A DNA stretch of 64,000 nt from an uncultured Gemmatimonadota bacterium (lineage in GTDB: Bacteria > Gemmatimonadota > Gemmatimonadetes > Gemmatimonadales > Gemmatimonadaceae): NCBI GenBank assembly GCA_903910555.1, contig CAIVZZ010000029.1, positions 1 through 64,000 on the forward strand, written 5' to 3'. A program made the translations under genes and the position numbers. The notes under the pieces were generated by a model, which was given only the letters and a program-made list of their open reading frames with translations, ran no database searches and had not been told where the DNA came from. Of the stretch, positions 8,856 through 59,205 are shown piece by piece (position 1 is the first letter of the stretch; each line of letters begins with the position of its first letter).

Positions 8856-8997
8856 CGAGTGAACTGTTAACTACTAACTGTTGGTCGGTTAACCAAGGTT
8901 TTCCGTCCGGGCACGGAGCCGCGTCGTCACGGCTCTGCGATATGACTAATTTTCACACAGAACACCGACCAACAGTTAGTGGTTAACAGTTCACTCG
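8856..8997. repeat. Intergenic inverted-repeat element, copy A
   Basis: Two 34-nt arms at 8856-8889 and 8964-8997 match as inverted repeats at 33 of 34 positions. The outer ends read CGAGTGAACTGTTAAC and the inner ends ACTAACTGTTGGTCGGT. The 74-nt core begins TAACCAAGG and ends ACAGAAC, which copy B at 59059 shares, but the rest of the core is unrelated to copy B. The core holds a small GAGCCG/CGGCTC hairpin. The element lies between divergent ffh and lon and contains no gene. Confidence 0.85.
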
Positions 8998-26655: not shown

Positions 26656-26995
26656 ATAGTAGATACGAGATTGGAGGGGCGAGGACAGTCACCAGATGGG
26701 AGAGCAGACTCGAGGGGCGAGTACGAGGGGTGAGCGGATAGATTTAGGGGTCTAGGGGTGAGCACGAGATGGGAGTGGCGAGGACTACTCGCGGCTTCGA
26801 CGCGTTCGTTATTGGGTTGGTTTTACAGCTGACCAAATGACGGAGTTATGAGAAGAGGGCGCGTCCCTCGCCCCTGAGAACTCGTGCTCACCTCTCCCCC
26901 CCAAATTCTGTCCCGCTCACCCCTGGCCCTCGCCCCTCGAGTCTGATCTCCCATCTCGTGTCTCCTCTCACCCCTCCCACCTCACAACTCAACCT
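26656..26995. other. Gene-free convergent gap between ppx and ppk1
   Basis: This 340-base stretch has no credible coding frame. Its left half is purine-rich (repeated GAGGGGCGAG and GGGGTGAGC words) and its right half pyrimidine-rich. The two halves form the long inverted repeat at 26694-26956. It probably acts as a transcription barrier between convergent genes or as a mobile-repeat remnant. Confidence 0.8.
26694..26956. repeat. Long imperfect inverted repeat, G-rich/C-rich arms
   Basis: Arms of about 90 nt face each other around a loop of about 75 nt. The outer core 26694-26721 (begins AGATGGGAGAGCAGACTCGA) matches the complement of 26929-26956 at 27 of 28 positions. AGGGGTGAGCGG at 26726-26737 matches 26913-26924 exactly. 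AGGGGTGAGCACGAG at 26754-26768 matches 26881-26895 at 14 of 15. The sequence is unrelated to the copies at 8856 and 59059. Confidence 0.85.
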
Positions 26996-59058: not shown

Positions 59059-59205
59059 CGAGTGAACTGTTAACGACTAACTGTTGGTCGGTTAACCAAG
59101 GTAAGAAAATCAGTCCTGGCTGCGACCCGCTTCGACGCGGCTCGATGCCAGGACTGATTTTTTAACAGAACACCGACCAACAGTTAGTTGTTAACAGTTC
59201 ACTCG
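59059..59205. repeat. Intergenic inverted-repeat element, copy B, with nested hairpin
   Basis: Arms at 59059-59092 and 59172-59205 match at 33 of 34 positions and are the same sequence as copy A at 8856 except at position 17. The core is different from copy A and contains its own perfect 15-bp stem: AAAATCAGTCCTGGC (59106-59120) with GCCAGGACTGATTTT (59147-59161). It lies between convergent acyltransferase and Nudix genes, and its right arm end overlaps the Nudix stop at 59199. Confidence 0.88.

Follow-up and report, generated by a model that had tools for sequence, protein, structure and literature searches.

Several described systems combine short inverted repeats with a dedicated gene or with dispersal between genes. 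REPINs are pairs of inverted palindromes dispersed in extragenic space, and each family is tied to a RAYT (TnpA_REP) gene (PMC3116915, PMC2817692, PMC3733652). The intervening sequences (IVSs) in the 23S rRNA genes of Coxiella and Leptospira enclose an S23/IVP ORF; they have been called selfish, and their mode of movement is unknown (PMC4990558). The published heptameric repeats (STRRs) of Nostoc, Calothrix and Xanthomonas are of unknown function and often occur as inverted pairs, with 70-75 such pairs in Xanthomonas, and replication slippage has been proposed for them (PMC4692102). The protein family PF05635 resembles Avd, an accessory protein of diversity-generating retroelements (DGRs), in sequence and fold (PMC10053308). 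Here we compare these systems with a palindromic element that is dispersed in a Gemmatimonadaceae-like genome of 3.2 Mb (assembly listed as 100 % complete).

Copies in the window and in the genome

The window, the whole stretch of 64,000 nucleotides that was analysed, contains two copies of the element, at 8856-8997 and 59059-59205, and one separate inverted repeat:

8856-8889, plus strand: left 34-nt arm of copy 1, between ffh and lon; member of the genome-wide family
8890-8899, plus strand: left inner module of copy 1, type T (TAACCAAGGT)
8900-8956, no strand: core of copy 1; looks mosaic, left of the TTTCCGTCC type, right of the GACTAATT type
8957-8963, minus strand: right inner module of copy 1, type G (GTTCTGT on the minus strand)
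8964-8997, minus strand: right 34-nt arm of copy 1
26667-26983, no strand: separate gene-less inverted repeat, arms of about 71 nt, loop of 175, between convergent ppx-like and ppk genes
59059-59092, plus strand: left 34-nt arm of copy 2, 4 bp past one stop codon
59093-59102, plus strand: left inner module of copy 2, type T
59103-59164, no strand: core hairpin of copy 2, AATCAGTCCTGGC ... GCCAGGACTGATT
59165-59171, minus strand: right inner module of copy 2, type G
59172-59205, minus strand: right 34-nt arm of copy 2

Copy 2 lies between convergent acetyltransferase-like and NUDIX-like genes. As the original prediction had it, the copies share both arms: the 34-nt inverted arms are identical save for one variable base at position 17. 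A half-arm search of the window found them nowhere else than in copies 1 and 2, each arm half having four matches against 0.02 and 0.33 expected by chance. Across the whole genome, the inner half-arm (up to two mismatches) matched 34 times in forward and 35 times in reverse orientation, and its reversed control gave no genome matches at the same stringency. These 69 half-arms fall at about 40 places, with 32 two-armed copies and eight that have one recognisable arm. The two-armed copies are mostly 140-150 bp long, apart from four short 96-bp forms and one of 617 bp; the latter carries a gene, and about 39 places are gene-less. A terminal CGAGT tag is conserved on the arms. We conclude that the arms are genuine and exact, and that they lie well beyond chance. 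The expectation of further copies genome-wide thus held, as did the description of a dispersed gene-less element whose arms, alike within the genome, are selected or homogenised.

A single recent duplication was rejected as the origin of the pair, given the approximately 40 places, the diverged cores and the relatives in other species. Exact matches in Clostridium and Delongbacteria contigs were lone 17-mers and were taken as chance. At several sites of the related genome G009 (L222, L228, L233), assembly contigs stop at or near palindromes, so that draft genomes probably contain more copies than were counted. Scored at the Rfam gathering threshold, the window gave only a tRNA and no known structured RNA at the copies. 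The repeat at 26667-26983 resembles copies 1 and 2 in architecture but belongs to another family; its arms had no clear match among the arms of the 11 IVP genes of the genome described below. A decayed IVP gene inside this palindrome was considered and rejected, there being no significant match.

Compared over the 32 two-armed copies, the cores are versions of one hairpin, AATCAGTCC-GGCC ... GGCC-GGACTGATT, and the long copies approach a single 150-bp palindrome. Each side of the core meets its arm via one of two inner modules, TAACCAAGGT ('T') or GTTCTGT ('G'), and all combinations are present (TT 14, TG 11, GG 7), both window copies being T...G. The claim that the cores are unrelated was therefore not borne out; the window pair had misled because copy 1 looks mosaic. 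The suggested exchange of cargo between unrelated cores is likewise unsupported, with the single gene-bearing copy as the exception. The 96-bp forms (L044, L053, L065, L072) are without the inner core hairpin and consist of arms and a 28-nt loop (GTTCTGTT ... AACAGAAC).

An IVP gene between arms of the family

The 617-bp copy (contig 11, 20874-21490) sits between ychF and pth, and its arms enclose an ORF. This ORF scored 107.6 bits against PF05635 (cut-off 33.8) and 108.1 bits against TIGR02436 (cut-off 24), and it matched the solved relative Xcc0516 (PDB 2gsc) with an E value of 2e-15. By these profile matches it clearly belongs to the '23S rRNA intervening sequence protein' family (PF05635/TIGR02436; S23/four-helix bundle), abbreviated IVP here. 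The absence of coding capacity stated in the original prediction thus applies to the gene-less copies and fails for this one; the term 'non-autonomous' fits, the gene-bearing copy having arms of the identical family.

The genome has 11 IVP genes, all 11 between inverted arms and each with its own arm sequence. With one fixed score threshold for own genome, genus, phylum and controls, inverted arms flanked 14/22 IVP genes from congeneric species and 19/26 from further genera within the phylum, compared with 0/59 shifted controls. The gene is under purifying selection (dN/dS about 0.07). The more alike two IVP proteins are, the more similar the arms of their genes tend to be (Mantel r 0.49, 0/2000 permutations): pairs alike in both arms and protein occur in unrelated genomic contexts (L077/L123, L078/L122) as well as in conserved ones (L085/L119/L127, L082/L107, L101/L102), which indicates that arms and gene travel or descend together. 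The four genomes with the present arm family carry the most IVP genes (7-11 versus 0-4), a comparison of few genomes in which the count ignores phylogeny.

Between ychF and pth, an IVP gene is present in 12 of 18 genus members and absent in four. In G007 and G008 (L106, L110), the IVP gene at this locus is kept without visible arms, and its frame continues into the pth region; it may have a role that is independent of the arms.

Most gene-less palindromes match the arms of resident IVP genes

A de novo search for inverted repeats in 664 kb of the genome, made up of stretches from two contigs and of the window, yielded 18 palindromes. Fourteen of them match the arms of one of the 11 own IVP elements beyond 60 dinucleotide shuffles, and four have no IVP-arm match. 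Scored against a larger set of own and foreign IVP flanks, the own flanks were ahead by more than 4 points for 14 palindromes and behind for one. Several arm families are involved, mainly those of the IVP loci L078, L080, L081, L084 and L087.

G063, a member of another genus with 10 IVP genes, has 26 palindromes, and most of the repetitive ones among them match its own IVP arms. The margin of own over foreign arms is smaller there (8 versus 0, p 0.005), and about ten of the 26 are without an IVP-arm match. The genus-mate G016, which has no IVP gene, showed three weak inverted repeats per 280 kb, as against 9 palindromes here. These findings demonstrate a strong association, in which the gene-less palindromes mostly belong to families headed by the genome's own IVP genes.

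Quite different palindromes or repeat arrays, such as ACTGCGG and CAACTGCAACTG, occupy the ffh-lon spacer, the site of copy 1, in G013, G012, G014 and G004 (L218, L219, L223, L225). These four genomes have just one or two IVP genes, yet carry palindromes at this site.

Arms turn over in concert at persistent sites

We searched the flanks of seven loci in three relatives (G001, G005, G009); the genomes compared in this work are mostly draft metagenome assemblies. A palindrome was present at 17/17 readable site-genome pairs. In G005, the arms at every site read belong to a family of its own (CGAGTAATCGGTCGTTGGTC...); those of G001 form a third, heterogeneous family, and those of G009 are nearly of the type found here. 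Arm identity between different sites of one genome was 0.93 in our genome and 0.85 in G005. For the same site compared between our genome and G005 it was 0.57, with a shuffled baseline of 0.53. The dispersed short arms thus undergo concerted evolution while their sites stay fixed.

Core identity at the same site (0.55-0.73) was not clearly higher than the mean of 0.64 across different sites, and site-specific cores are therefore not claimed. Over evolutionary time, exchange concerns the arms and not the cores. The arms of the ychF-pth IVP gene are close to the dispersed arms of their own species here (0.92) and in G009 (0.86). In G001 they are intermediate, with 0.67 to the dispersed arms of that species and 0.75 to those of our genome.

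Seven-base periodicity and plasmid-borne IVP genes

Pooled arms autocorrelate at lags 7, 14 and 21, with lag-7 z values of 9.7 for the own genome, 10.9 for the genus, 24.7 for the phylum and 11.1 for gene-less palindromes. On its own the 34-nt family has weak peaks (z 1.8 at lag 7 and 2.9 at lag 14) and is a degenerate case of 7-nt repeat arms.

Among the matches listed, plasmid IVP genes are almost all cyanobacterial (Nostoc, Calothrix, Anabaena and others), together with one from Azospirillum and one from Gemmatirosa. Nine of the 13 examined lie between inverted heptad arrays, for example of GGAGTCA, GGGAACA or GGTGACA (0/26 controls), and their arms reach a z of 16 at lag 7. IVP genes on plasmids of cyanobacteria and of Azospirillum thus share the inverted-array architecture. 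On three cyanobacterial plasmids (L308, L312, L319), IVP genes lie within CRISPR-Cas operons, in the order cas6-IVP-cas4 in Pseudanabaena and Anabaena and cas10-IVP-cmr3 in Picosynechococcus.

A proposed IVP-headed palindrome family

IVP genes, arm families and gene-less palindromes match one another, and the arms change in concert at fixed sites. From this we infer, with a probability of about 0.5, that the copies in the window are gene-less members of a family of palindromic elements with an IVP gene at its head, REPIN-like but with IVP in place of the transposase. IVP may cause the spread or the homogenisation of the arms. The protein would recognise the heptad arms as hairpin or cruciform DNA. 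Together with host replication or repair, it might promote the copying of arms between copies, through hairpin-templated repair or gene conversion, and rarely the seeding of new copies beside stop codons. By analogy with RAYT transposases, which are thought to act on REPINs in this way, it would act in trans on the gene-less copies. To our knowledge, IVP is no known nuclease, and we know of no IVP activity on DNA.

More tentatively, IVP/S23 proteins in general may be the agents of a widespread bacterial selfish DNA; they would recognise heptad-repeat hairpins and overwrite dispersed gene-less arms from a template copy, using neither a transposase nor a reverse transcriptase. If this wider proposal is true, it would explain the dispersed heptanucleotide repeats and the spread of 23S rRNA intervening sequences. 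Three puzzles may then be one, namely the role of IVP/S23, the movement of IVSs and the origin of the heptanucleotide repeats of Nostoc and Xanthomonas. The data supply a testable link, in which every IVP gene goes with an arm family and gene-less palindromes of its own. If IVP drives the concerted change of arms, it would constitute a system that homogenises or mobilises sequences with no transposase involved, and this could be tested in culturable cyanobacteria. An association of IVP with heptad palindromes was not found in a search confined to open-access journal literature.

Some observations speak against a family headed by IVP. The arm-less IVP genes at ychF-pth in G007 and G008 make another role possible. 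Other palindromes occupy the copy-1 site in the four genomes with one or two IVP genes, and some palindromes here and in G063 resemble no IVP arm. Plain gene conversion between repeats could homogenise the arms without IVP. Neither an insertion nor a target duplication was seen, and there was no clean empty site at low divergence, all 17 checked sites being already occupied; the relatives compared are diverged species, none of them near-identical strains.

Alternative explanations

The main rival is a combination of ordinary gene conversion and host selection on 3'-end hairpins. According to this explanation, the copies are bidirectional terminators or protectors of mRNA 3' ends maintained by the host, ordinary gene conversion homogenises their arms, and IVP is an RNA-binding partner or a passenger. 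Of the 39 copies that a simple gene caller could classify, convergent genes flank 19 and divergent genes three, compared with 8 convergent among 50 gene pairs in the window. Copies are usually within about 10 bp of stop codons, and a T-run follows many of them. This placement is compatible with a terminator role as well as with copies being tolerated at 3' ends, and the persistence of sites in relatives agrees with host maintenance. However, stems of 140-150 nt far exceed the needs of a terminator, and host-maintained hairpins do not predict a wholesale, synchronous replacement of arms or the match between arm family and IVP gene. When the arms of IVP elements were read on the sense strand of the gene, G-U mismatches were not in excess of A-C mismatches (74 versus 71). 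This favours a palindrome at the DNA level over one at the RNA level, without being decisive, and gives no support to an RNA structure with selected arms, the other option of the original prediction. Overall, we regard this rival as a doubtful account of the family.

It is improbable that the copies are miniature inverted-repeat transposable elements (MITEs) derived from an insertion sequence with a lost or overlooked transposase. Inverted termini, many copies and the lack of genes would suit such an origin from an insertion sequence with 'CGAGTGAACTG' ends. A transposase with matching ends was sought in the genome and none was found; no arm pair surrounds a transposase, and IVP is the only enclosed gene. 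Inspection of the flanks of the 32 two-armed copies revealed no target duplications. Moreover, the sites are old and shared while the termini change, unlike transposon insertions.

Equally little credence goes to slippage and chance, by which replication slippage would grow the arms, template switching would invert copies and IVP genes would merely tolerate such sites. The 7-nt periodicity agrees with slippage, the process already proposed for heptameric repeats. It leaves unexplained the flanking of IVP genes in several tested phyla, the match between arm family and IVP gene and their co-inheritance; the shifted controls, with inverted heptad arrays at 0/59 and 0/26, also stand against it. 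Classical REPINs mobilised by a RAYT, for which paired inverted palindromes in extragenic space, the conserved CGAGT tag and a single-copy gene with the same ends at a conserved locus could be cited, are highly improbable and, barring a very divergent RAYT, refuted already for this assembly, since PF01797 (Y1_Tnp) had 0 matches in the genome in a search that was positive in E. coli and four other controls.

Comparison with known systems

With MITEs, the present elements share shortness, inverted termini, high copy number and the lack of genes. They differ in having no parent transposase and hence no termini in common with a transposase-encoding transposon, no target-site duplication, and conserved sites with changing termini. 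The resemblance of PF05635 to Avd does not extend to a DGR, as the genome is without reverse transcriptase (PF00078, 0 matches). With the 23S rRNA IVSs, they have in common inverted repeats that form a stem around an S23/IVP ORF (PMC4990558). Unlike IVSs, they lie between protein genes, such as ychF and pth, and not in a 23S rRNA gene, and they have many gene-less relatives. By the tests run, the element is not a MITE; neither is it an IVS inside 23S rRNA or a DGR.

The heptameric repeats are similar in being intergenic, degenerate 7-nt repeats with few copies between divergent genes (PMC4692102), and the pooled arms have the same 7-nt tandem periodicity. They differ in that PMC4692102 draws no link to IVP, its text containing neither 'S23' nor 'xcc0516'; overlap with the present system was compared only via the cyanobacterial plasmid IVP genes.

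The REPIN/RAYT system also consists of inverted pairs that are scattered through extragenic space and end in a short tag. Each of its families goes with a particular single-copy gene that has the family's palindromes on either side, and its populations persist vertically (PMC3116915, PMC2817692, PMC3733652). Here, too, paired extragenic palindromes accompany one family gene, but this gene encodes the IVP four-helix bundle and not a Y1 (HUH) transposase, and the arms consist of 7-nt repeats, which are exchanged together from one species to the next while the sites stay fixed. The lack of a Y1 transposase excludes the element from the REPIN/RAYT system. By analogy, it appears to act as REPINs do with their RAYTs, in families of inverted pairs that are each tied to a distinct gene (PMC3116915).
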